Assembly (NCBI GenBank): GCA_947167125.1 | Contig: CAMVGT010000005.1 | Coordinates: 1 to 64,000 of the forward strand | Origin: an uncultured Erysipelotrichaceae bacterium | GTDB taxonomy: Bacteria; Bacillota_I; Bacilli_A; Erysipelotrichales; Erysipelotrichaceae | Length of the DNA: 64,000 nucleotides | Reading direction: 5' to 3' | Shown here: one piece after another, positions 2,838 through 38,222 of the stretch | Layout of the letters: every line of letters begins with the position of its first letter | How positions within the stretch are numbered: the stretch's first letter is position 1 | The notes under the pieces: model-generated | The model's input: only the letters and a program-made list of their open reading frames with translations | The model's database searches: none | Told to the model about the DNA's origin: nothing | Program-made: the position numbers and the translations under genes

Positions 2838-5800
2838 ATGAAACTGTTCAGAAGAATAGCACTCAGCTTTCTGTCCGCAGCCATGACTGCTTCCCTCGGG
2901 ATGACAGCAGTCAGAGCTGAAGAAAACGCTGTCACCGTCACCGGTGACGAGGCGATGGAACTCGCTGAAGTTCCTGCCGCAGTCAAAGACATCATCAAAG
3001 TTGAAGACACCACAGTCACAATCGATGGTGCAGACGCATGGACAGATCTCAACGTCGGAACACCCGGCAATCTTGAACTGGCCGACAATAATTACGTCAC
3101 CGGCTGGTCCTACTATTACATGATGGAACTGACTTCCTGGGTCAAGCAGCTTGAAAAGGCTCTGGAAGGCACAGAAGTCACAGCCATCCATTACAACGGC
3201 ACAGACACAGTCATCAGCAAAACATATCTTGACGATCTGAATGAACTGCTCGACAAGCTCAACAGCTTCGACAGATCCCTGAAGATCAGATATGACTTCG
3301 AAAAGACCACCAGCAATTACATCGCAGAAAACGGCAGTGCTCAGCTGAAGTTCCATGTGCAGACAAACGGCTACTGGGGCTATGACCTGGCAGGTGATTC
3401 CATCATTGACAAAGTCACCGGCGAACCCGGCGGCTACATGGAAAACCAGCAGCTCAACAACAAATATGCAAACTTCTTCGTCGTTGACATGACTGAAAAG
3501 TTTGAAAACATGTATATTCTCAACGACACAGATCTTCAGAATCCTGTTCTCTACATGGATGAGAAGGAAGCGTTCCTTGTCGACGTGGATTTCCGCGGCG
3601 GCGAAACATTCCATCAGCTGATTAAGGATATGGTCGGTGACAGAGATCTGTATATCTATATCACCCATGCCCATGGCGATCATTACAACAACCTCGAATT
3701 CTTTGAAGCTGAAGACATGAAGGGCCTCTACTTCGGCAAGAACGAAGCTCTGCCGAGAGCTGAATGGTTCGCTAAGTTCAATGACCTTGTCATTCCGTTT
3801 GAAGACGGCATGAAGATTGAACGCGCCGGCAAGGAATTCGAAGTCATCGAAATGAACAACCACACAAGCGGCGGCTCCCAGCTGCTCGATATCACTGACA
3901 GAATCCTGCTGTCCGGCGATACCCTCGGTGCCCAGACCTTCAAGGGCGGCACAACTGTCGGCCTTTCCGCTGTGGACAACTGGATTGCCCAGTTTGATCA
4001 TTCCATCGAAGTTCTGAAGCTCGGCACGGATGAAAGAAGATGCGATTACATCATCGGCGGCCACACCGCTTATCTCAATACATGGGAATTTGAGATGTGG
4101 GTCTACCAGGCACTCCTGGCAGCACAGGAGAAGGGACCTTCCGCCACCACACTCAACCCGATCGGCCAGAACACCATCGTCGTCAGAGACGGCAAAGTGC
4201 TCAGCGCTGAAGAAAACCTTGCCTGCTTCCTGAACGGCACCCCGGTACCGGCCATCTCCGATGAGGAAGTCATGCATACAGCTTCCATCAATGTCCGCAA
4301 TGATTCCATCGTCACAAAGGATGAGAAGTATCCGAATGTCTATCACTACACAACAAAGAGAGTGACAGACGAATACTCCGAAAACTTCTACAACGCAGCC
4401 TATATCATCTACGCTGACGGCGCTCTCAATGAAGCCAAAGCTTCCAAGCTGCTCAAGGATCTCGGCGCTGACGCCAACATGGACAAGTACGGCTGGAACG
4501 CCCTTGTTGTCGCTCCGCTCGGTGAAGAATACACAGAAGACGATCTCAAACTCTACACGGACGCCCTCATTGACATGAGCGGTTCCATGTTCGGTCTCAA
4601 GATTGTCGGTGTCGGCAAAGGCGCGGACTTCGTCAACGAATACATCACAAAGAAAGATTTCGCTGTCTCCGGCTATCTGACCATTGACGCAGAGAATGAA
4701 GGCGAATACGGCGATATTCCTGCCTATGTCACAGCAACAGAGAAAGAAACCCTGGCTGAAGCGTTCGCGAACGGCTGGAAGGAAGCTCTCTCCAAAACCA
4801 TGAAGCTCGGCAATATCGGCGCCACATTCTACACACAGCCCGCTTCAAAAGAAAGACCTTACGAATTCGTTCCGTGGACCGAAAGCGAAGTCCTCGGCTT
4901 TACAAGAAATGTCGTCAAGGAAGACCTCGACGGCGACGGCGCTGACAGCCTGTGGTATGAATACATCCCTGCCACCGCTTCCAAAGAAGAAGGCAGCGCT
5001 CCGATGGTTCTCTTACTCCATGGCAACACCAATGATCCGAGAACACAGTTTGAAACCAGCGGCTGGGCACAGCTTGCGGCAAAAGAAGGCATTATCCTGA
5101 TTGAACCTGAATGGCAGGGCACAAGCTGGGGCGCCGATCCGATGACAGAGAACGACTCCACCACAAGGGAAAACGACATCATCACAATGCTTGAGAAGGT
5201 CTTCGAAAAGTATCCTCAGATTGATCAGAGCAGAGTCTATGTCGAAGGTCTCTCCAGAGGCTCCCTCAATACAATGGATCTTCTTCTGACTCATCCGGAA
5301 ATCTTTGCGGGCGGCGGATCTCATTCCGGTGCGGTGATCGGTGATCTGATGAGTGCAGATGATTTCACAGACATCATCAAAGAAGAAAAAGATCAGTATG
5401 ATATGCCTTGGTTCTTCATCGCCGGAACGCAGGATGGATTTGTACCTGTTTCTGAAAAAGGCGCTGAAAAGAGCGGCGTACTGCAGGCACTGAATCTCTT
5501 TGAAGAACTCAATGAAATGGGTCATACAGAGTATGCGGATCTTGATGAAAGCAAAGTTGAATGGTTCGGCTTCACACAGATGAAAGACTTCGGTGAAGTT
5601 GAGAATTCCGGAAGCCTGACCGTAAAGGGCGGCACAATCAGAAACGACGCAGATATTCCGATGCTTTCCTTCAATGCGATTGAAAACTGGGGACACTGGA
5701 ACTATCCGGCTTCCGCGGAACTGATGTGGAACTTCCTGAAGCATTATTCAAGAGACACTGAAACCGGAGCTCTGAACTATGACGGTCTGACAATCAGCAG

Positions 5801-6533
5801 AACTGAAGCTGAGATCCCGACCAGAACGACACTGAAGCTGAGCGCTACAAAACCTGTCACATGGACATCCTCCGATGAATCCATCGCAGCAGTCGATGAA
5901 AACGGTCTTGTCACAGCACTGAGATATGGTAAAGTCACAATCACAGCGACAGCCGAAGACGGTGAAACAGCCACATGCGAAGTCCAGACAAGATACTATG
6001 ACGTCAATGATGACAGTAAGTATTACTGGACACCTGTCTACTGGGCAGCTGACAATGCAATCACAAAGGGATATGACAATGTCTTCTTCGGTCCTGAAAG
6101 AAACTGCACCAGAGAAGCAGTCGTCACATTCCTGTGGAGACTTGCCGGCAAGCCGGAACCGCAGACAACAACAAATCCGTTCAGCGATGTATCTGCCAAT
6201 AAGTACTACTACAAGGCAGTGCTGTGGGCAGCAGAGAACGGAATCACAAAGGGATATAAGGACGGCACATTCAGACCGGATGAAACATGCTTAAGAGAAC
6301 ATGTAGTCACATTCCTCTACCGTTTCGCAGGTTCACCGGATGTGAAAACAACAGTCAACCCGTTCAACGATGTGAAGCGCAGCGATTACTACTACAGAGC
6401 ATCTGTATGGGCTAATCAGGAAGGCATCGCAAAGGGCTATTCCGAAGGCGAACATGCCGGCGGATTCGGACCGAAGCTTGACTGCTTAAGAGAACACGTC
6501 GTTACATTCCTTTACCGATTCGATACAAAATAA
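2838..6533 (+). CDS. Secreted SLH-anchored fusion of a metallo-hydrolase and an alpha/beta-hydrolase
   Basis: An AGGAGG site 10 nt upstream selects the ATG at 2838, giving 1231 residues with a signal peptide (cleavage probably after VRA, near residue 28). Domains in order: a metallo-beta-lactamase fold with HAHGDH at residues 277-282, a later NHTSGGS, LSGDT and GGHT; a middle region of unclear fold; an alpha/beta-hydrolase with LLHGN, nucleophile elbow GLSRGS (Ser ~806), Asp ~866 in GTQDGF and His ~953 in NWGHW; one Big_2-like Ig domain (about 984-1050); and three SLH repeats (about 1055-1231). Both catalytic sets look intact. The protein should be displayed on the cell wall and act on external substrates, perhaps esters or sulfated/phosphorylated compounds, but no substrate can be read from sequence. 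It lies next to divergent RpiR-like regulators. Confidence 0.85.
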   Translation: MKLFRRIALSFLSAAMTASLGMTAVRAEENAVTVTGDEAMELAEVPAAVKDIIKVEDTTVTIDGADAWTDLNVGTPGNLELADNNYVTGWSYYYMMELTSWVKQLEKALEGTEVTAIHYNGTDTVISKTYLDDLNELLDKLNSFDRSLKIRYDFEKTTSNYIAENGSAQLKFHVQTNGYWGYDLAGDSIIDKVTGEPGGYMENQQLNNKYANFFVVDMTEKFENMYILNDTDLQNPVLYMDEKEAFLVDVDFRGGETFHQLIKDMVGDRDLYIYITHAHGDHYNNLEFFEAEDMKGLYFGKNEALPRAEWFAKFNDLVIPFEDGMKIERAGKEFEVIEMNNHTSGGSQLLDITDRILLSGDTLGAQTFKGGTTVGLSAVDNWIAQFDHSIEVLKLGTDERRCDYIIGGHTAYLNTWEFEMWVYQALLAAQEKGPSATTLNPIGQNTIVVRDGKVLSAEENLACFLNGTPVPAISDEEVMHTASINVRNDSIVTKDEKYPNVYHYTTKRVTDEYSENFYNAAYIIYADGALNEAKASKLLKDLGADANMDKYGWNALVVAPLGEEYTEDDLKLYTDALIDMSGSMFGLKIVGVGKGADFVNEYITKKDFAVSGYLTIDAENEGEYGDIPAYVTATEKETLAEAFANGWKEALSKTMKLGNIGATFYTQPASKERPYEFVPWTESEVLGFTRNVVKEDLDGDGADSLWYEYIPATASKEEGSAPMVLLLHGNTNDPRTQFETSGWAQLAAKEGIILIEPEWQGTSWGADPMTENDSTTRENDIITMLEKVFEKYPQIDQSRVYVEGLSRGSLNTMDLLLTHPEIFAGGGSHSGAVIGDLMSADDFTDIIKEEKDQYDMPWFFIAGTQDGFVPVSEKGAEKSGVLQALNLFEELNEMGHTEYADLDESKVEWFGFTQMKDFGEVENSGSLTVKGGTIRNDADIPMLSFNAIENWGHWNYPASAELMWNFLKHYSRDTETGALNYDGLTISRTEAEIPTRTTLKLSATKPVTWTSSDESIAAVDENGLVTALRYGKVTITATAEDGETATCEVQTRYYDVNDDSKYYWTPVYWAADNAITKGYDNVFFGPERNCTREAVVTFLWRLAGKPEPQTTTNPFSDVSANKYYYKAVLWAAENGITKGYKDGTFRPDETCLREHVVTFLYRFAGSPDVKTTVNPFNDVKRSDYYYRASVWANQEGIAKGYSEGEHAGGFGPKLDCLREHVVTFLYRFDTK

Positions 6534-6567
6534 GGAAACTGACGGTATCTTTCGATTCCAATATGAA

Positions 6568-6600
6568 GCAGTGTATGCATAACGTATGCACTGCTTTTTT
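6568..6600 (+). terminator. Rho-independent terminator
   Basis: AGCAGTG pairs with CACTGCT, extended by wobble and A-U pairs through the ATGC region, and is followed by T6. It ends the SLH hydrolase transcript. Confidence 0.8.
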
Positions 6601-6637
6601 GCGTTTCAAATCGCCCTGCAGATATTTACTTTATTCT

Positions 6638-6657
6638 GAAAATGTTTTAGCATTTTC
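6638..6657. promoter_or_regulatory. Operator-like palindrome upstream of phosphofructokinase
   Basis: A perfect inverted repeat GAAAATG / CATTTTC with a 6-nt spacer lies 25 nt before the start codon, between the preceding terminator and the ribosome-binding site. It could be a repressor site or a leader hairpin. Confidence 0.4.
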
Positions 6658-6681
6658 TTACAGGTAAAGGAGATATAACTA

Positions 6682-8343
6682 ATGAATATTTCACCTCTTC
6701 AGAAGGAAAGACTTCAGTATGAGCCGAAGCTTCCCGGAATGCTGAGACACGGCATTTCCGCGATCTGCGTCAAGGAAGGCGAAGAAACACAGAGTGTTGC
6801 CAACCAGGATCAGATCAAGGCTCTTTTCCCGAACACTTACGGTAAAAAAGAAATCACATTTGAAAAAGGCGAGAACACATCCGCTGCTAAGAAGCAGGTT
6901 GTAGGTGTTATTCTTTCCGGCGGTCAGGCACCTGGCGGACACAACGTTGTTACAGGTCTCTATGATGCTTTAAAGGCAACAAATCCTGACAATGTACTCT
7001 ATGGTTTCAAGAACGGTCCGAGCGGACTCCTCGATGATGACTATATCGAATTCACAGATGAATACATCGATCAGTTCAGAAACACCGGCGGATTCGACAT
7101 CATCGGTTCCGGTCGTACAAAGCTCGAAACAGAAGAGCAGTTCGCAGTTGCGGCTGAAGTAGCTAAGAAGCATGGCATTACAGCGATCGTTATCATCGGC
7201 GGCGATGACTCCAACACAAACGCTGCAGTTCTGGCTGAATATTTCGCAGCTCATGAAACAGGCGTTCAGGTAATCGGATGCCCGAAGACAATCGACGGCG
7301 ACCTCAAGAACGAAGACATCGAATGCTCCTTCGGTTTTGACACAGCTACAAAGACATACAGCGAAGTCATCGGCAATATCGAAAGAGACGCAAACTCCGC
7401 TAAGAAGTACTGGCACTTCATCAAGGTTATGGGCCGTTCCGCTTCCCACGTTGCACTCGAGTGCGCACTGGAAACACAGCCGAATATCTGCCTGATTTCC
7501 GAAGAAGTTGAAGCCAAGAAGATGTCCCTGAGCGAAATCGCTGACTACATCGCTGACTCCGTATGCAAGAGAGCCGCAAACGGCATGAACTTCGGTGTTG
7601 CGATTATTCCGGAAGGCGTTGTCGAATTCGTTCCTGAATTCAAGACACTGATCGCTGAAATCAACGAACTCCTCGCCGGCGCAAAGGCTGATGAATTCAA
7701 CGCTCTGCCTACATGGGAAGACAAGTATGCATTCATCGAAAAGGGTCTGACTCCTGAATCCATGGCAGTCTTCGCAATTCTGCCGCAGACAATTCAGCAG
7801 CAGCTCTTCCTTGAAAGAGATCCTCACGGAAACGTTCAGGTTTCCCTGATTGAATCCGAAAAGCTCTTCTCCGCTCTTGTAAAGGCTAAGCTGGATGAAA
7901 GAAAAGCAGCAGGCACATACAACGGCAAGTTCAGCCCGCTCCATCATTTCTTCGGATATGAAGGAAGATGCGCATTCCCGTCCAACTTCGACGCTGACTA
8001 CTGCTATTCCCTCGGCTACAACGCATTCATGCTGATTCAGTACGGATACAACGGATATCTGTCCAAGATCTCCAACCTGTCCAAGCCTGCTGATGAATGG
8101 GTTGCCGGCGGTATGCCGATCACCAAGATGATGAACATGGAAAGAAGACACGGCGAAGACAAGCCTGTTATCAGAAAGGCTCTTGTCGAACTCGATGGAA
8201 AGCCGTTCAAGTACTTCGAAGCACACAGAGAAGCTTGGGCTGTTGAAACAGCTTATACATATCCTGGTGCAATTCAGTACTACGGACCGTCTTCTGTCTG
8301 TGACATCACAACCAGAACACTCGCTCTGGAAAAAGGCGAATAA
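6682..8343 (+). CDS. pfp: Diphosphate-dependent 6-phosphofructokinase, long form
   Basis: PPi:fructose-6-phosphate 1-phosphotransferase, cytoplasmic, acting in glycolysis and reversibly in gluconeogenesis. The 553-residue length matches the long PFP type rather than the ~320-residue ATP enzyme. The phosphoryl-donor site reads GGDDSNT and the catalytic loop PKTIDGD. The Asp and Lys at the positions that are Gly in ATP-dependent enzymes are the known PPi signature. GGQAPGGHN near residue 80 forms the N-terminal phosphate loop. An AAAGGAG site precedes the ATG. It is a single-gene transcript bounded by terminators. A second, shorter PPi-type enzyme lies at 24715-25950. Confidence 0.93.
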
Positions 8344-12104: not shown

Positions 12105-12153
12105 TGACTCTGTTATTGCATCAGACATGCAATATGAGGGAAAGAGATTTTAT

Positions 12154-13068
12154 ATGGGAAAGTATCTGATCAAACGAGTGCTCCTCGCTATGCTGAGTAT
12201 CTTCCTGATCTGCATGATTACATTCTTCCTGATGAATGCTGTACCGGGAGGACCGTTCTCAAGCGAGAAGGCAGTTTCAGCACAGGTTATGGCAGCACTG
12301 GAGGCACGCTTCAATCTGGATAAGCCGCTCTGGCAGCAGTTCCTGATTTACATGGGCAATATTCTGAGGGGAGACTTCGGTATTTCCATGAAGACAGGAC
12401 GTGAAATCGCGGTCACGCTGAAAACATGCTTCAGCGTTTCGGCAAAGCTCGGCGGAAGCGCACTGATTGTCGCAATGGTTTTCGGAATTATATTCGGTTG
12501 TATCGCCGCTCTGTACAGAAACAGGATCCCGGACAGAATTATCGTTTTTATGACAACTCTGTTCACCGCAATGCCGTCATTCGTATTCGCAACACTTCTT
12601 CTGCTTGTTTTCTGCATTCAGCTGAAGTGGTTCCCGGTATGGGACGCCTCCAATAAGAGTTATCTTCTGCCGGTCATCTCGCTTGCGGCATATCCGACAG
12701 CGTACATCACACGTCTGACAAAGACTTCGATGCTGGATGCGCTCGGACAGGACTATGTCCGCACAGCCCGCGCAAAGGGTGTTCCGATGACATGGGTTAT
12801 TTTCAAGCACGCACTCAGAAATGCGCTGATTCCGGTTATTACCTATCTCGGCCCGGAACTTGCATATATTCTGACCGGTTCACTGGTTGTCGAAAACATT
12901 TTCACAATCGGCGGACTCGGACAGCAGTTTGTTCAGTCGATTAACAACAGAGACTATTCCATGATTATGGGCACAACCATTTTCCTTGCCATCATCATGG
13001 TTCTCTGCAACCTGCTGAGCGACATCCTTTATAAGATTGTTGATCCTCGGATCAAGCTGGAAGCGTAG
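12154..13068 (+). CDS. oppB: Oligopeptide ABC transporter permease OppB
   Basis: The first inner-membrane subunit of an oligopeptide importer. The ATG at 12154 gives 304 residues starting MGKYLIKRVLLAML, typical of OppB; an upstream in-frame ATG would add an unlikely hydrophilic tail. Six membrane helices are apparent. The EAA loop that contacts the ATPases reads DYVRTARAKGVPMTWVIFKH near residues 203-222. It is the first gene of an oppBCDFA operon in which the binding protein comes last. Confidence 0.93.
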   Translation: MGKYLIKRVLLAMLSIFLICMITFFLMNAVPGGPFSSEKAVSAQVMAALEARFNLDKPLWQQFLIYMGNILRGDFGISMKTGREIAVTLKTCFSVSAKLGGSALIVAMVFGIIFGCIAALYRNRIPDRIIVFMTTLFTAMPSFVFATLLLLVFCIQLKWFPVWDASNKSYLLPVISLAAYPTAYITRLTKTSMLDALGQDYVRTARAKGVPMTWVIFKHALRNALIPVITYLGPELAYILTGSLVVENIFTIGGLGQQFVQSINNRDYSMIMGTTIFLAIIMVLCNLLSDILYKIVDPRIKLEA

Positions 13069-13084
13069 GAAAGGGGGAAATGGA

Positions 13085-14152
13085 ATGTCTGAAATGAATG
13101 CACCGAAAAAGAACCTTCTGAGTTTCCAGATCGATCCTGCTTCCTTTGAACCGGCAACCGATGAGGAAAAGCAGCAGGCGGAAGTCATGAGTGAATCCAC
13201 GTCCTTCCTGAAGGACGGCATCCGCAAGCTGATGAGAAACCCCCTGGCAGTGGGGTCTCTGATCGCACTGGTTCTGATTGTTCTTCTGATTATCATTGCG
13301 CCGAGAATTGTCCCTTACGGATATGAGGAAATCATCCGTGTCGGCGGCGCGAAGGATAAGACCATTACCAATCTGGCACCGTTTGCATGGAGCGAAAAAG
13401 AACAGGCCGCAATCGCAGCCGGCACAAAGCTGTTCCCGCATATCATGGGCACCGATTCACTTGGCCGTGACTACTTCATCCGTGTTATCTACGGAACACG
13501 CGTTTCGCTGATCGTCGGTCTGTTCGCAAGTATCCTTGTCCTGATCATCGGCGTTCTCTACGGCGCGATTTCCGGATACAAAGGCGGACGCGTCGATATG
13601 ATCATGATGCGTATCGTGGATATTATCTATTCACTTCCCGATGTCCTGATCATTATCCTGCTGTCGGTTGTTCTCAACCAGACGCTGGATAAAGGCAATC
13701 CGGTCGTCAAGCTGCTGGGTACCAACATGGTTGCGATCTTTGTGGTATTCGGTCTGCTCTATTGGGTCGGAATGGCGCGTCTGGTCAGAGGCGAAGTTCT
13801 CAAGATCAAGAATAACGAATACTTCCTTGCCGCAAAGGCAACCGGTGCAGGTTCGTGGCATATTATCAAAACGCATGTCATTCCCAACTGCATCAGCGTG
13901 ATTATCATCACAACCGCTCTTCAGATTCCTTCCGCGATTTTCACGGAATCATTCCTGTCATTCATGGGTATGGGCGTTCAGGCACCGATGCCTTCACTCG
14001 GCTCACTGGCAAACAACGCCAGAGCAGGTCTGCAGAGCTATCCGTGGCAGCTGATCTTCCCGGCAATCATGATCGTCCTGATCGTCCTGGCATTCAATCT
14101 GCTCGGCGACGGTCTGCGTGACGCGTTTGACCCGAAACTCAGGAGGCAGTAA
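13085..14152 (+). CDS. oppC: Oligopeptide ABC transporter permease OppC
   Basis: Second permease subunit, 355 residues. The chosen ATG has a GGGGG-type ribosome-binding site and begins MSEMNAPKKN; the longer frame overlaps oppB. A cytoplasmic N-terminus of about 60 residues precedes the first helix (around 62-82), then an external stretch containing MGTDSLGRDYF, five more helices and the EAA loop (NNEYFLAAKATGAGSWHI). The C-terminus GDGLRDAFDPKLR is the usual OppC/DppC ending. Only 2 nt separate it from oppD. Confidence 0.93.
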   Translation: MSEMNAPKKNLLSFQIDPASFEPATDEEKQQAEVMSESTSFLKDGIRKLMRNPLAVGSLIALVLIVLLIIIAPRIVPYGYEEIIRVGGAKDKTITNLAPFAWSEKEQAAIAAGTKLFPHIMGTDSLGRDYFIRVIYGTRVSLIVGLFASILVLIIGVLYGAISGYKGGRVDMIMMRIVDIIYSLPDVLIIILLSVVLNQTLDKGNPVVKLLGTNMVAIFVVFGLLYWVGMARLVRGEVLKIKNNEYFLAAKATGAGSWHIIKTHVIPNCISVIIITTALQIPSAIFTESFLSFMGMGVQAPMPSLGSLANNARAGLQSYPWQLIFPAIMIVLIVLAFNLLGDGLRDAFDPKLRRQ

Positions 14153-14154
14153 CC

Positions 14155-15189
14155 ATGGCAGTACTTGAACAGATTCTGAAAAACGGTGAACAGCCGATTC
14201 TGAAGGTTGTTGACCTTCATACAAGCTTTACAACTGATAACGGCGAAGTGCAGGCGGTCAACGGTCTGTCCTTCAATCTGAATCCGGGCACAACCCTCGG
14301 TATCGTCGGCGAATCCGGATCCGGAAAATCCGTTACAGCATATTCGATTATGCGGATTCTTGAATCCAACGGTCACGTCACACAGGGAAAGATCCTGTTT
14401 AACGGGGAAGATATTTCCAAATACAGCGAAAAGCAGATGGCGGATTTCCGCGGCAACAAGATTTCCATCATCTTCCAGGACCCGATGACATCGCTCAATC
14501 CCGTCTACACCGTAGGCAACCAGATTGTCGAAGCGATCACCCTGCACCAGCAGGTAGGCCGCGAAGAGGCGAAAGCCGAAGCGATTGAAATGCTGAAGCA
14601 GGTCGGAATCAACGACGCTGAAAGACGTTTCAGGCAGTATCCTCATGAGCTTTCCGGCGGTATGAGACAGCGTGTCATGATTGCGATGGCGCTTGTTTCC
14701 AAGCCCTCGATCCTGATCGCGGACGAACCGACAACAGCTCTTGACGTTACGATTCAGGCGCAGATCCTTGAACTGATGCAGGAACTGCAGAAGAAATATC
14801 ACATGGCGATTATCATCGTCACGCATGACCTCGGCGTCATTGCCCAGATGGCGGATGAAATCGTTGTCATGTACGGCGGAAGAATCTGCGAACGCGGAAC
14901 CGCTGAAGACATCTTCTACAATCCCTGCCATGAATATACAAAGGGACTTCTGAAATCCATCCCGAATGTCGACAACATGAAGGAAAAGCTGATTCCGATT
15001 GAAGGATCTCCGATCAATCTTCTCAATCTTCCGAAAGGATGCGCATTCTGCGCAAGATGTTCCAAGGCGATGAAGATCTGCCTGGAACAGGTACCTCCGG
15101 AACTGAGAATGCCGGACGGCCATCTGGCTTCATGCTGGATCAATGTCCGTGACAACAACTACATCGTGGATGAGGAGGCTGCCGCATGA
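14155..15189 (+). CDS. oppD: Oligopeptide ABC transporter ATPase OppD
   Basis: One of two nucleotide-binding subunits that energise peptide import. The 344-residue protein shows Walker A GESGSGKS (near residue 54), signature LSGGMRQR and Walker B ILIADEP, then the C-terminal oligopeptide-transporter extension with a cysteine cluster (C-x2-C-x2-C-x6-C and a later CW). In some related Opp/Dpp ATPases such cysteines bind an iron-sulfur cluster; whether this holds here is inference. AGGAGG precedes the ATG. It overlaps oppF by 4 nt (ATGA). Confidence 0.93.
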
Positions 15190-16160
15190 GTGAAGCAAAT
15201 AAAAGCGAATACCTGGTTGAGGTAAAGAACCTCAAGCAGTACTTCCCGGTCAGAACAGGCTTCATGAAGACAGTTCCGCTCAAGGCGGTCGACGATGTCA
15301 GCTTCGCGATCAGACCCGGCGAGACACTCGGTCTTGTCGGTGAATCCGGATGCGGAAAGACAACCGTCGGACGTACGCTGCTTCATCTTTACAAGCCGAC
15401 AGGCGGGGAAATCTATTTCGAAGGAAAACAGGTGACGGAAAAGAACATCGGGGAATTCCGCAAGGACATGCAGATGGTGTTCCAGGATCCGTATTCCTCC
15501 CTCGATCCGCGTATGACGGTTGAGGATATTATCGGTGAGCCTCTGGATGTGCATAAGCTCTATTCCACAAAGGAAGAGCGCCATCAGAAGGTCATTGAGC
15601 TGATGAATCTTGTCGGACTCAATGCCGAACACGCCACCAGATATGTTCATGAATTCTCCGGCGGACAGCGCCAGCGCATCGGCATTGCCAGAGCGCTCGC
15701 GGTCAACCCGAAATTCATTGTCTGCGATGAAGCTGTGTCAGCTCTCGACGTTTCGATTCAGGCACAGGTCATCAATATGTTTGAGGAACTGCAGGAAAAG
15801 CTCGGCGTGGCATATCTGTTTATCGCCCACGACCTTCTTGTCGTTCATCATATCTCCGACCGGATTGCCGTTATGTATCTTGGACGTATGGTCGAAATGG
15901 CCGACGCCGATGAACTGAACGAAAATCCGATTCATCCGTATACTCTCTCGCTGCTTTCCGCGGTTCCGGTACCCGATCCCAAAACCGCAAAGGCTTCGCA
16001 GAGAATTATTCTTGAGGGCGATGTACCGAGCCCGCTTAACATGCCTTCAGGCTGTGCGTTCCGCACCCGCTGCCGCTATGCGACAGAACAGTGCGCAAAG
16101 GAATGCCCGGCTTTGACGGACAGAGGCAACGGCCATATGGTTGCCTGCTGGAATCGATAA
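15186..16160 (+). CDS. oppF: Oligopeptide ABC transporter ATPase OppF
   Basis: Partner ATPase to OppD, 324 residues. Walker A GESGCGKT (near residue 54), Q-loop [11 protein letters not shown], signature [10 protein letters not shown] and Walker B FIVCDEA are intact, followed by the OppF-type C-terminus with the GCAFRTRC cysteine motif. Start and stop overlap with oppD as ATGA shows translational coupling, as expected for a heterodimer. Confidence 0.93.
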
Positions 16161-16188
16161 AGGTTTCAACTCATAAGGAGGGAAAGAA

Positions 16189-17967
16189 ATGAGTATGAAA
16201 AAGTTCATGGCTTCTGCCCTGGCTCTCGCTCTGCTCGCCGGATGCTCTTCCAGCACACCGAGCGGCAGTACCGACACAGACGGCGGAAACACCGAAGGTG
16301 AAGCGTTTGAATCAACACTTTACCCCACACCGGAAGGAGTAACATATACTGCTTCCTCCACAAACGCAGCTGCGCCTGACTGGGCAAAGTATGATGAGCT
16401 CGTTGATCAGATCAGAACAACTCTCGATATGGATGAGCGTGTATCACTCATGCACCAGGCTGAAGACATTCTGATGGGAACAGCAGCTGTCATTCCTCTG
16501 TATTACTACAACGATACTTTCATGCAGAAGACAGACGTAGACGGAATCTACTCCAACGTCTTCGGCAACAAGTTCTTCATGTTCGCGACAACACCGCGTG
16601 ACACACTGAAGGTCAACCTCGCTTCCGAACCGGATAAGATTGACCCGGCTCTGAATACATCCGTTGACGGCGCTTGCCTTGATGTCAACCTGTTCTCCGG
16701 TCTCTACACATATGACAAGAACGGACAGCTGACACCGGACAGCCTGGATCATGAAAATCCTTATGAAGTTTCTGAAGACGGTCTGACATATACATTCCAT
16801 CTGCAGGACGGTCTGAAGTGGTCCGACGGCTCCGCTCTGACAATGAATGACTTCGCTTATGCATGGAACCGTGCAGTTGATCCTGCAACAGGAGCTGACT
16901 ACGAATACATGTATGCTCCGATCGCCGGCTACAGCGAAGGCGCTCTGAAGATCGAAGTTGTTGACGATCTGACAATGACAGTTGAGCTGGTTGCACCGTG
17001 TGCATACTTCCTCGACCTCATGGCATTCCCGGCATTCTTCCCGGTTAAGAAGGATGTTGTTGAAGGCGCTGAAGGCTTCGCAGATAACCCTGGCGCATGG
17101 GCTACAGAAGCAGGCTTCGTTTCCAACGGTGCTTACACTCTGGATTCCTGGACACATGGCGAATCCATGGTCTTCAAGAAGAACCCGAACTACTACAGAG
17201 CTGATGAAGTTACTGTAGAGACAATCAACTTCATGCTTTCTGCTGATGACACAGCAATCTTCGCTGCATTCCAGGCAGGCGACCTCGACTTCGCTGACTC
17301 CGTTCCGACAAACGAAATCGCTTCCGTCAAGGACACTCCGGAATTCCATGTCATCGACAACCTCGGCACATACTATGCATGCTTCAACGTCAACAGCCCG
17401 ATTTTCGAAGGCAAGACAGTTGATCAGGCAATCGCTATGAGAAAGGCATTCTCCCTGCTCATCGACCGTCAGTACATCGTTGACACAGTAGGCCAGACAG
17501 GCCAGCTGGTCGCTACTTCCTACCTGCCTGCAGGTATGGCTGACGGCAACGGCGGAACATTCAAAGATGCTTCCGGCTGGAAGTATCCGGATGGATCCGA
17601 TGGATACTATCCTGCAGAAGTAACAGATACAGCTGTTGAAGAAGCACGCAAGCTTCTTGAATACGCAGGCTTCACATTCGGTGAAGACGGCAAGCTCTCT
17701 GCAGATACACCGATCAACATCACATACCTGACAAATGAGTCCTCCGGACATGTCGCTGCAGCTGAATCCATGCAGCAGGACTTCTCCGAAGTAGGCATCA
17801 ACATGGAAATCAAGCAGGAAGACTGGAACGTATTCCTGACAGACCGTAAGAACGGCAACTATGACTTCGCTCGTGAAGGCTGGCTCGCTGACTTCAACGA
17901 TCCGATCAACATGATTGAAATGTTCGCTTCCTATTCCGGAAACAACGATCCGCAGTTCGGAAAATAA
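16189..17967 (+). CDS. oppA: Oligopeptide-binding lipoprotein OppA, apparently circularly permuted
   Basis: Extracellular peptide-binding protein of the upstream Opp transporter, 592 residues, with a lipobox LLAGC (Cys19 lipidation) and AAGGAGGG ribosome-binding site. In this family (SBP_bac_5), the mature start resembles LKVNLASEPDKIDPALN and the end is a helix-rich segment after GNNDPQF. Here LKVNLASEPDK begins only at about residue 140. The usual C-terminal segment (DWAKYDELVDQI... AEDILMGTAAVIPLYYYND, about residues 64-133) sits directly after the signal peptide, and the protein stops at GNNDPQFGK. The order is therefore rotated relative to the family. The second OppA here (34765-37074) has the normal order. 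All core parts seem present, so it may be functional. Confidence 0.88.
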   Translation: MSMKKFMASALALALLAGCSSSTPSGSTDTDGGNTEGEAFESTLYPTPEGVTYTASSTNAAAPDWAKYDELVDQIRTTLDMDERVSLMHQAEDILMGTAAVIPLYYYNDTFMQKTDVDGIYSNVFGNKFFMFATTPRDTLKVNLASEPDKIDPALNTSVDGACLDVNLFSGLYTYDKNGQLTPDSLDHENPYEVSEDGLTYTFHLQDGLKWSDGSALTMNDFAYAWNRAVDPATGADYEYMYAPIAGYSEGALKIEVVDDLTMTVELVAPCAYFLDLMAFPAFFPVKKDVVEGAEGFADNPGAWATEAGFVSNGAYTLDSWTHGESMVFKKNPNYYRADEVTVETINFMLSADDTAIFAAFQAGDLDFADSVPTNEIASVKDTPEFHVIDNLGTYYACFNVNSPIFEGKTVDQAIAMRKAFSLLIDRQYIVDTVGQTGQLVATSYLPAGMADGNGGTFKDASGWKYPDGSDGYYPAEVTDTAVEEARKLLEYAGFTFGEDGKLSADTPINITYLTNESSGHVAAAESMQQDFSEVGINMEIKQEDWNVFLTDRKNGNYDFAREGWLADFNDPINMIEMFASYSGNNDPQFGK

Positions 17968-17980
17968 GAAACACTCAGAA

Positions 17981-18018
17981 ACAGCTTCTGCAGAATATGG
18001 CCTGCAGAGGCTGTTTTT
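17981..18018 (+). terminator. Rho-independent terminator of the first opp operon
   Basis: A 13-bp stem (ACAGCTTCTGCAG / CTGCAGAGGCTGT, one wobble pair) with an 8-nt loop and T5. Its proximity to the oppA stop leaves no remnant of a conventional OppA C-terminus downstream. Confidence 0.85.
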
Positions 18019-34652: not shown

Positions 34653-34764
34653 TCTTTCATAAGTACTTTCGGCAGGACAGTTGTGCGTACTGCAAATACA
34701 GGATCAGTACATAGCCATCGCTTCTGTTATTGTCGGCGTATTTATTTTTCGGAGGGAAAAGAAA

Positions 34765-37074
34765 ATGAGTTTTGGAAAAAAGAATGTATCCAGATTCCTC
34801 GCAGGTGTTCTCTCAGTAGCGATGCTCGCAGGCTGCAGCAACACACAGCCGTCCGGCGAAGGCCAGACTGACGGCGGCGACGCAGCAGGCAGCTCCGATA
34901 CACCTCTCGTAGTCGGATACTCACCGTTCAACAGCAAGTTCTCACCGTTCTTCTCAGAAACAGCTTATGACCAGGATGTCTATGCAATGACACAGATCGG
35001 TCTGTTCAACAGCGACCGTGTCGGCGCACCTGTTCTGAATGGTATCAAGGGTGAAACAAGAAACTACAATGGCACAGATTATACTTACTACGGACCGTCC
35101 GACATCGAAATCAAGGAAAACGATGACGGAACAGTAGATTACAACATCACTCTTCGTGAAGACCTCACATTCTCTGATGGCGAGCCTGTGACAATCGATG
35201 ACGTAATCTTCTCCATGTATGTACTCTGCGACCCGTCCTATGACGGAAGCTCCTCTCTGTTCTCCGCACCGATCGAAGGTATGGATGCATACCGTTCCGA
35301 TATGGCTTCCCTGATCGACCTGCTCTTCGAAGCTGGACGTGACAACACAAACTTCGATCTTTGGGAGGAAGCACAGCAGACAGACTTCTGGACAAAGTAT
35401 GATGCAGCTACAAAGGGTCTTGCTGAAGAAATCGTTGCTTACTGCGTAGACAACGGATTAAACGAAGAAGGCGACATCCAGGGTGCTGCTGGCAACTGGG
35501 GATTCGAAATTGAAGACAACACAATCGAAGCTTTCCAGAAGGCTCTCGAAGAAGCATACGGCTCTGACGTTGCCGGCATGATCGGCACAGAAGCTGCTGG
35601 CTCCACAGTTGAAGATCTGTTCCCGGGCCTCGAAGACTACAGCCTGAACATGATCACTGTTTCCGATCCGGTTATGAACATCTCCGGTATCAAGAAGACA
35701 GGCGACTTCTCCATGACAGTTCATACAACAAAGGTTGACGCTACAGCTATTTACCAGCTCGGCGTTTCCATCGCTCCGCTGCACTACTATGGTGAAAAGG
35801 ACAAGTATGACTATGACAACAACAAGTTCGGTTTCGACAAGGGCGATCTGAGCCATGTCCGTTCCGTTACAACTCAGCCGATGGGCGCTGGACCTTACAA
35901 GTTCATCAAGTTCGAGAACAAAGTTGTCAACTTCGAAGCTAACGACAGCTACTACCTCGGCGCTCCGAAGACAAAGTACATCAACTTCCAGGAAGTTTCC
36001 GATACAGATAAGCTGAACGGTGTTGTTACAGGCACAATCGATATCACAGATCCGTCCTTCTCCACAGATGCTGCAAACGCAATCAAGGAAGCTAACGGCA
36101 ATGACGATATCGTTGGTGATGTCATCACAACAAATACAGTAGACAACCTCGGTTATGGTTACCTCGGCATCGATGCTGACATCGTCAACATCAATGGTGA
36201 AAAGGGCAGCGACGCTTCCAAGAACCTCCGTAAGGGTCTTGCTACAATCTTCGCTCTCTACCGTGAACTCACAGTCGCTTCCTACTACGGACTCGACCGT
36301 GCTGCTGTTATCAACTATCCGATTTCCAACACATCATGGGCAGCTCCTCAGCCGACAGACGCTGACTACAAGGTTGCTTTCTCCACAGATGTAAACGGCA
36401 ACGACATCTACACATCCGATATGGATGACGATGCTAAGAAGGAAGCTGCTAAGGCTGCAGCTCTCGGCTACTTGGAAGCTGCTGGCTTCACAGTTGCTGA
36501 CGGCAAGGTTACAGCTGCTCCTGAAGGATTCAAGGGCACAGGCGCTAACAACGCAATCGAATACGAAGCTTGGATCCCTGCTGACGGTTCCGGTGATCAC
36601 CCTTCATTCATGCTCCTGACAGAAGCAAGCAAGACATTTGCTGAAATGGGAATCAACCTCATCGTTAAGGACCTCTCCAACTCTTCTGAACTCTGGACAG
36701 CTCTCGAAGCTAACCAGGTACCGATCTGGTGCGCAGCTTGGGGCGCAACAGTTGACCCTGACATGTATCAGATCTACTTCTCCGGTGATGCTAAGAACGC
36801 AGCAGGCGGATCCAACTACATGTATGGTATCGACGATGCTGAACTCAACGGTCTGATTCTTGATGCACGTGCATCCATCGACCAGGCTTACAGAAAGACT
36901 CTGTACAAGGCTTGCCTTGACATCATCGTTGACTGGGCTACAGAAATTCCTGTATATCAGAGACAGAACGCAATTATCTTCAGTACACAGCGTGTCAACA
37001 TGGACACTGTTACTCCGGATATCACTACATTCTATGGCTGGATGAGTGAAATCGAAAAGATCGAACTGAAGTAA
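34765..37074 (+). CDS. oppA: Oligopeptide-binding lipoprotein OppA, enlarged
   Basis: Extracellular peptide-binding lipoprotein (lipobox MLAGC) of the second Opp system, 769 residues against about 550 in usual members. The GGAGGG site 8 nt before ATG 34765 selects the start; the longer frame lacks one. The extra length includes a helical, acidic insert of about 130-140 residues after SAPIEGMDAYRS (roughly residues 175-315). The C-terminal order is the normal one for the family, ending with ELNGLILDARASIDQAYRK and the final strand segment, in contrast to the permuted OppA at 16189. It is followed by an intergenic hairpin that may cut transcription before the permease genes. Confidence 0.9.
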   Translation: MSFGKKNVSRFLAGVLSVAMLAGCSNTQPSGEGQTDGGDAAGSSDTPLVVGYSPFNSKFSPFFSETAYDQDVYAMTQIGLFNSDRVGAPVLNGIKGETRNYNGTDYTYYGPSDIEIKENDDGTVDYNITLREDLTFSDGEPVTIDDVIFSMYVLCDPSYDGSSSLFSAPIEGMDAYRSDMASLIDLLFEAGRDNTNFDLWEEAQQTDFWTKYDAATKGLAEEIVAYCVDNGLNEEGDIQGAAGNWGFEIEDNTIEAFQKALEEAYGSDVAGMIGTEAAGSTVEDLFPGLEDYSLNMITVSDPVMNISGIKKTGDFSMTVHTTKVDATAIYQLGVSIAPLHYYGEKDKYDYDNNKFGFDKGDLSHVRSVTTQPMGAGPYKFIKFENKVVNFEANDSYYLGAPKTKYINFQEVSDTDKLNGVVTGTIDITDPSFSTDAANAIKEANGNDDIVGDVITTNTVDNLGYGYLGIDADIVNINGEKGSDASKNLRKGLATIFALYRELTVASYYGLDRAAVINYPISNTSWAAPQPTDADYKVAFSTDVNGNDIYTSDMDDDAKKEAAKAAALGYLEAAGFTVADGKVTAAPEGFKGTGANNAIEYEAWIPADGSGDHPSFMLLTEASKTFAEMGINLIVKDLSNSSELWTALEANQVPIWCAAWGATVDPDMYQIYFSGDAKNAAGGSNYMYGIDDAELNGLILDARASIDQAYRKTLYKACLDIIVDWATEIPVYQRQNAIIFSTQRVNMDTVTPDITTFYGWMSEIEKIELK

Positions 37075-37235: not shown

Positions 37236-38222
37236 ATGAGAAAATATATAATCAAGAGATTACTCCTGTCTTTGGTAATTCTGTTCTTTGTAGCATTCAT
37301 TATCTATGCATTAATGCGCAGTCTTCCCACATCCTATCTTGAAACAATCGCACGTCAGAAGTCGATGCAGCCGGGTTCCAAAACATTTGAAGAATGGATG
37401 GAACAGCTGTCTGCTACCTACGGTATGGACAAAGGCATTATCGGCGGCTTCTTTGAATGGCTCGGCAAGTTCATGACCGGCAACTTCGGCGACAGCTGGT
37501 TCTACACAGTTCCTGTTTTCGAAAAGTTCAAGAGCGTCGTATGGCTTTCCTTCATTATGGGTCTGATTTCCTTCGTGCTCGAGCTGATCATTGCGATCCC
37601 GCTCGGAATTATCGCTGCCACGAAGCAGTATTCGAAAGCTGACTATGCGATCTCGGTATTCGCTCTGGCCGGTATTTCCCTGCCGACATTCTTCTTCGCA
37701 TCCCTGCTGAAACTTGTCTTCTGCGTCAAGCTCGGCTGGTTTGACCTGTTCGGTCTGATGGGAAGAAATTATGAGCAGCTCGATTCGGTAGGCAAGTTCT
37801 TTGACAAGGCTCACCATCTGGTTCTGCCGATCACAACCCTGGTTGTTATCAGCGTCGGTTCCCTGATGCGTTACTGCCGTACAAATATGCTCGAAGTACT
37901 GAATGCGGATTATATCAGAACAGCACGTGCGAAGGGTCTTGATGAACGCAAAGTTATTTACCATCATGCTTTCCGCAATACATTGATTCCGCTTGTCACC
38001 ATGATCGGCGGATCGCTGCCGGGTCTGTTCTCCGGTGCGCTGATTACCGAAACACTTTACAGTATTCCGGGTATCGGACATACATCCTATCAGGCAATGG
38101 TCGCGGGTGATATTCCGTTCTCCATGTTCTACCTGGTATTCATGGCAATCCTGACACTGCTCGGCAACCTGATTTCCGATATTCTGTACGCGGTTGTAGA
38201 CCCGCGTGTCAGAATCGCATAA
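37236..38222 (+). CDS. oppB: Oligopeptide ABC transporter permease OppB (second system)
   Basis: The 328-residue permease has a first helix at about residues 8-28, an external loop and five further helices. The EAA loop reads ADYIRTARAKGLDERKVIYH. The external loop after helix 1 is longer than in the first-system OppB, with a KSMQPGSKTFEEWMEQL segment. GGAGG ribosome-binding site 9 nt upstream. 15 nt separate it from oppC. Confidence 0.93.
   Translation: MRKYIIKRLLLSLVILFFVAFIIYALMRSLPTSYLETIARQKSMQPGSKTFEEWMEQLSATYGMDKGIIGGFFEWLGKFMTGNFGDSWFYTVPVFEKFKSVVWLSFIMGLISFVLELIIAIPLGIIAATKQYSKADYAISVFALAGISLPTFFFASLLKLVFCVKLGWFDLFGLMGRNYEQLDSVGKFFDKAHHLVLPITTLVVISVGSLMRYCRTNMLEVLNADYIRTARAKGLDERKVIYHHAFRNTLIPLVTMIGGSLPGLFSGALITETLYSIPGIGHTSYQAMVAGDIPFSMFYLVFMAILTLLGNLISDILYAVVDPRVRIA

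Follow-up and report, generated by a model that had tools for sequence, protein, structure and literature searches.

We analysed a 64,000-nt stretch of DNA (the window) from an uncultured Erysipelotrichaceae bacterium and found that the binding-protein gene of its opp operon, oppA, encodes a circularly permuted protein. The permutation is real. We consider it very probable that the product is a working OppA lipoprotein whose mature chain has been rotated, most likely by duplication in place, and that it belongs to one lineage (type A, by position of the cut) of a family that has switched chain order repeatedly. Natural circular permutations are usually met as single, old, isolated pairs. The locus contained the following features:

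12127-13068, + strand: oppB permease, 53-92% identical to oppB of type A and type B operons with the BCDFA layout
13085-14152, + strand: oppC permease, from the ATG at 13085 (the ORF list starts at an upstream TTG, 13037)
14155-15189, + strand: oppD ATPase (ORF and operon comparison)
15186-16160, + strand: oppF ATPase (ORF and operon comparison)
16175-16182, + strand: ribosome-binding site AAGGAGGG, 5' of oppA (read from the sequence)
16189-17967, + strand: oppA, circularly permuted, 592 aa plus stop (ORF, Pfam, phmmer, HMM)
16189-16245, + strand: signal peptide with lipobox LLAGC (read from the sequence)
16246-16377, + strand: linker past the lipobox, ending in the cut loop (NAAAPD) (alignment; pLDDT below 50 at residues 1-37)
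16378-16587, + strand: equivalent of the OppA C-terminus, residues 64-133 (phmmer, ordinary-order relative L006, HMM)
16588-16602, + strand: junction of old C-terminus and old N-terminus, residues 134-138 (phmmer and cut-loop alignment)
16603-17964, + strand: N-terminal and middle parts of OppA, residues 139-592 (PF00496 at 192-586), ending GNNDPQFGK (Pfam, phmmer, HMM, structure match)
17890-17892, + strand: codon of Asp568, equivalent to OppA Asp419 (residue 587 pairs with 438 in the 9rd1 alignment, and 592 with 443 of 1ola)
17997-18014, + strand: terminator-like hairpin 3' of oppA (sequence)

The ORF at 16189-17967 runs from the signal peptide to a C-terminal segment (residues 64-133) and then to the N-terminal part (139-592). 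In a phmmer search against the PDB, residues 137-587 matched residues 19-449 of Bacillus subtilis OppA (8are; i-Evalue 3.1e-59), and residues 67-131 matched 456-520 of the same chain (i-Evalue 7.9e-4). The front segment (64-126) also matched residues 447-511 of DppE (8ay0; i-Evalue 4.8e-9). Alignment with an ordinary-order relative (L006, genome G042) showed 50% identity over residues 139-592 and 55% over residues 59-133 (E 2.5e-23), in swapped order. An HMM built from 15 ordinary-order OppAs placed ORF positions 57-138 on HMM positions 473-555 and then 140-591 on 45-480, in an ORF numbering that runs 4 ahead of the protein numbering. These comparisons bore out the claim of an earlier note on this DNA that the normal OppA C-terminal segment lies at the front, and its placement of the moved segment at 16378-16587 (residues 64-133) was correct.

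The two ends of the protein fit each other. In ordinary kin, SGNNDxQFGK(G..)TAAPDWxxYDEL is a single, uninterrupted loop; in the window OppA, SGNNDPQFGK followed by the stop forms the C-terminus, the moved segment begins with NAAAPDWAKYDEL, and the cut is clean. The protein therefore stops where the moved segment would normally come next, as the same note had stated. No C-terminal remnant was found in the sequence downstream of the stop, where the hairpin at 17997-18014 lies, again as described there. Both parts are thus homologous to one ordinary protein, swapped in order, complementary at their ends and free of duplication, as in a circularly permuted homolog. The PF00496 profile matched with 275 bits (gathering cut-off 32.4); the window OppA lacks the ordinary chain order, which is usual for OppA-type proteins and lies outside the Pfam definition. 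The second OppA of the window (34681-37074), described earlier as having ordinary order, indeed gave weak HMM matches in the ordinary sequence of parts. It is a very divergent SBP_bac_5 protein of 797 aa with extra length, and its own permease gene comes next (37236-38222).

The oppB, oppC, oppD and oppF genes at 12127-16160 adjoin the permuted gene in an oppBCDFA operon, of which the window oppA is the sole binding protein. The same arrangement was seen elsewhere: oppBCDF stood beside the permuted gene in 23 of 23 permuted loci showing the whole operon (22 distinct, as L050 repeats L037). At these loci the permuted gene was the only OppA seen, except at L192 (genome G1103), which holds an additional C-terminal fragment of another OppA. 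This stand-alone fragment (7457-8101, 215 aa) lies directly 3' of the permuted oppA and shares no more than 33% identity with the permuted protein of its locus, which points to another paralog; it is probably the remnant of a neighbouring one.

The window order was also present in eleven other genome contigs at 88-57% identity, for example in Erysipelotrichaceae strain NK3D112 and Porcincola intestinalis, and the independent assemblies carrying it include isolates. A twelfth contig encoded a protein of 44% identity (L044) that is permuted but cut elsewhere. No ordinary-order copy of this OppA subfamily was found in the window genome. That genome is a draft of 130 contigs, and an error of assembly or binning might have exchanged segments within a gene or collapsed tandem copies into one. 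The probability of this is close to nil: the order recurs at 88% identity elsewhere, including strain NK3D112, and in Porcincola intestinalis, one type B case lies on a single contig of 2.17 Mb (G329), and purifying selection extends along the entire frame. Misassembly at 16370-16600, a concern raised earlier, was ruled out because independent assemblies share the order at 88% identity, and a search of relatives, proposed at the same time, found it in many independent genomes.

The permuted oppA evolves under purifying selection, with dN/dS against kin of 0.14-0.20 for the whole gene and 0.02-0.13 for the moved segment. These values also bear on the idea that the gene is a decaying, non-functional rearrangement. 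The rearrangement is unusual and the function is predicted, which speaks for decay; against it stand the dN/dS values and the retention of an intact frame, signal peptide, operon and Asp419 equivalent across wide divergence. We regard decay as very improbable.

The window OppA is predicted to keep the OppA fold. AlphaFold2 with 30 permuted homologs gave a model of the window protein with pLDDT 87 and pTM 0.82, confident over the mature chain, and 82.7 and 0.79, respectively, for a type C protein modelled with 17 homologs. A sequential structure aligner superposed residues 136-592 of the window model on 18-454 of 8are (421 residues, 2.9 Å, Z 29.4), and such aligners matched only about 250 residues of the type C model. 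Partial matches are expected from sequential aligners because the chains are rotated. Residues 64-133 lie outside the superposed part; homology and the confidence of the model predict that they occupy the place normally taken by the C-terminal segment. The model agrees with the earlier suggestion that a rotated chain could still fold. Among the best 60 PDB matches listed, no chain spanned the permuted junction in one stretch. Asp419 of OppA, a contact of the peptide α-amino group, corresponds to Asp568 of the window protein in both the 9rd1 alignment and the 1ola structure match. The Asp419 motif was present in 56 of 60 permuted proteins, and one of the remaining four is truncated. The window OppA would probably bind and transport oligopeptides.

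Proteins rotated at other places were first met among the relatives (L044, L027 and L046-L048). For a census, a profile (A1) covering the joint at which the former C-terminus meets the former N-terminus served as the probe, and cuts were placed on a 558-position OppA profile. It yielded 60 distinct permuted OppA-type proteins, one of which (L039) ends early at a contig end. Within the window's order, 28 of 316 genomes had matches spanning the junction (the last of them, G088, was established as permuted in a separate check); the family of G786 (Porcincola) contributed 19 of 250 genomes, and the order of G788 contributed 8 of 197. In a sample of the class outside the window's order, G346, G317, G329 and G636 were permuted, as confirmed by chain order. 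Whole-genome sampling covered Bacillota, and other phyla were sampled through plasmid records only; among the latter, 1193 matched the junction query but only 2 did so over 80% or more of its length, which makes rotated OppAs uncommon in these records.

On the profile, the cuts grouped tightly at three places: type C at 316-322, type B at 384-399 and type A, to which the window OppA belongs, at 478-485. Later additions were L201 and L202, further B and C cases (L202 by weak profile matches), and L203, a Subdoligranulum variabile record with a fourth cut (type D) near profile position 170, in the N-lobe. In window residues, the cuts lie at about 250 (D), 401-409 (C), 483-498 (B) and 585-592 (A); the type B range comes from profile end points, and its loop precedes the INITYLTN strand. 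By the domain boundaries of OppA, the cuts of types A-C lie in the C-terminal lobe. L202 (G786, Porcincola; ORF 5980-7764) is the distant second SBP_bac_5 protein of its genome, looks rotated (type C), lacks a lipobox and has its own permease and ATPase genes. The L203 gene (OY725879.1, ORF 4867-6669) lies 3' of oppBCDF and encodes a Ser/Ala-rich C-terminal tail. The window OppA, first presented as a single oddity, is instead one case of a recurrent, multi-site phenomenon that comprises the 60 permuted proteins and L201-L203.

Trees were built on un-rotated sequences, and each change counted is a chain-order switch in either direction, as reversals are inseparable from gains. On a 142-row tree, the order states needed 16 changes. 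A 69-row LG+C20 tree required 14 changes between ordinary and permuted order, and its well-supported branches force 13 of these. The N-terminal stretch before the type C cut is untouched by A-C rotations and guards against bias from un-rotation; its tree likewise gave 14 changes, with a bootstrap range of 13-15 and no fewer than 9 forced. AU tests rejected one clade for the main type A group (p 0.0019), type B (p 5e-86) and type C (p 1e-39), a result that rejects one origin per type and one old event for the whole. The main group, L073 and L083/L084 are cut at different residues of the type A loop, which is independent evidence of separate switches. In the 69-row tree, L156 (G1107) and L158 (G1193) were sisters (100/97) with cut sites B and C, respectively, a pairing that suggests two recent switches or a re-permutation.

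If permutation happened only once or a few times long ago, errors in the tree or recombination of ordinary with permuted paralogs could also have scattered permuted proteins over many branches. The main type A proteins end almost uniformly in GNNDxQ(F/L/Y)G(K/R), as if from one origin, and the base of their clade is poorly resolved. Yet the AU tests reject one clade for main A, B and C alike, the rotation-free region yields the same count, L073 and L083/L084 are cut at residues unlike those of the main A group, and at least three cut sites cannot stem from one event. We therefore judge a few ancient events to be improbable. It is likely that permutation has recurred in the OppA of Bacillota through at least 9-13 switches, forward repeatedly or in both directions, at a few re-used loops and with the signal peptide and apparently the function kept.

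The permuted genome G001 has close ordinary sisters (G007, G010 and G021). G001 and G010 share the gene order of the operon, at about 82% DNA identity, and differ in arrangement only in the mature part of oppA, which is rotated while the signal peptide before it and the DNA downstream have stayed in place. Ordinary and permuted proteins were about 84% identical in one case. In the youngest event (G001 against G010, G021 and G007), the parts mapped cleanly, and the search for DNA footprints found breakpoints unreadable at about 82% identity.

A plausible route starts with a tandem duplication of oppA in place. The mature regions of both copies would then be fused in frame, the first copy losing its front except for the signal peptide and the second its end. 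A short linker would join the old C- and N-termini, and new termini would open in the C-terminal-lobe loop between the GNNDxQFGK and AAPDWxxYDEL elements. Once folded, the product would have the usual two lobes of OppA, close around its peptide and dock on OppBC; the rotation would alter only the chain connectivity and the lobe that carries the membrane lipid. We favour this route because tandem oppA arrays are frequent in the window's order (for example G040:C94, G056:C127 and G049:C7) and the permuted joints are short and in frame. Among the census proteins, neither a fused intermediate of double length nor a partly trimmed one turned up (none covered more than 640 HMM positions or exceeded 760 aa), so the duplication route is a reconstruction. 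Alternatively, a break at the cut loop might have left two separate ORFs, which were later rejoined in opposite order. The location of the cuts in loops would suit such a fission and fusion, as would the stand-alone C-terminal fragment 3' of the permuted gene in G1103, but that fragment, at 33% identity, belongs to another paralog. Moreover, no split OppA pair was present among the loci examined, and the second half would require its own signal peptide. Fission and fusion is unlikely, although it carries more weight than the other alternatives, and in-place duplication is the reading we keep.

The new position of the lipid anchor may bring an advantage. The anchor change would fit types A-C, with their C-terminal-lobe cuts, and not the lipobox-less type A proteins or type D. 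A lipobox is missing from the type A proteins L041-L043 and L129, and nothing in L040 fits the lipobox pattern applied; the signal of L041-L043 and L129 looks like the ordinary signal peptidase I type. Because of these proteins and the N-lobe cut of type D, moving the anchor to another lobe cannot explain the recurrence in general. That every permutation shifts the anchor to the C-terminal lobe was rejected as a rule by L203 and weakened by the lipobox-less type A proteins. Plain tolerance of exposed loops for cuts may be enough to account for the recurrence.

Related gut bacteria carry one kind of operon gene in its ordinary order and in four or more permuted ones, which makes this family an unusually rich natural experiment in chain rewiring. 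It makes testable the DNA-level origin of permutations, which loops tolerate new termini, the role of the direction of chain emergence in secretion and folding, and the shift of a lipid anchor between lobes in a Gram-positive ABC importer. It also exposes a practical trap, in that sequential aligners and family profiles name such genes correctly yet miss the rotation. If our reading is true, OppA would be one of few protein families, and perhaps the first, to show chain order as an evolvable, repeatedly changing trait. Our literature search of open-licence papers found no report of a circularly permuted OppA or of such recurrence.

The window OppA shares with B. subtilis OppA and DppE (8are, 8ay0; cluster C, PF00496 SBP_bac_5) the family, the predicted fold, the lipoprotein signal, the opp-type operon and the Asp419 equivalent. 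It differs in its rotated chain, with a new N-terminus and lipid anchor in the C-terminal-lobe loop that comes after the DPxxxxEMF helix. The proposed route is that described for saposin/swaposin and DNA methyltransferases, namely tandem duplication, fusion and trimming of both ends (permutation routes are reviewed in PMC3320104). It departs from the saposin/swaposin route in that the OppA signal peptide must stay, which makes the front loss internal, and in that the census proteins include no intermediates. The closest parallel is MglB-2 (Tp0684) of Treponema pallidum, a naturally permuted ABC-importer binding protein, proposed as Type Ic/Cluster Bc, that retains ligand binding; its permutation is conserved in a clade including Gram-positive bacteria, and its authors propose a link to membrane tethering (PMC4990184). 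MglB-2 binds sugar, belongs to cluster B and has a different fold type, and the available portion of that report describes one permuted topology in one family, without recurrence or re-used cuts (PMC4990184). The window protein falls outside Type Ic/Cluster Bc, being a PF00496 member whose best structural matches are proteins of the OppA type. Circular permutation of a binding protein has a precedent in MglB-2 (PMC4990184), and the surprising part here is the recurrence.
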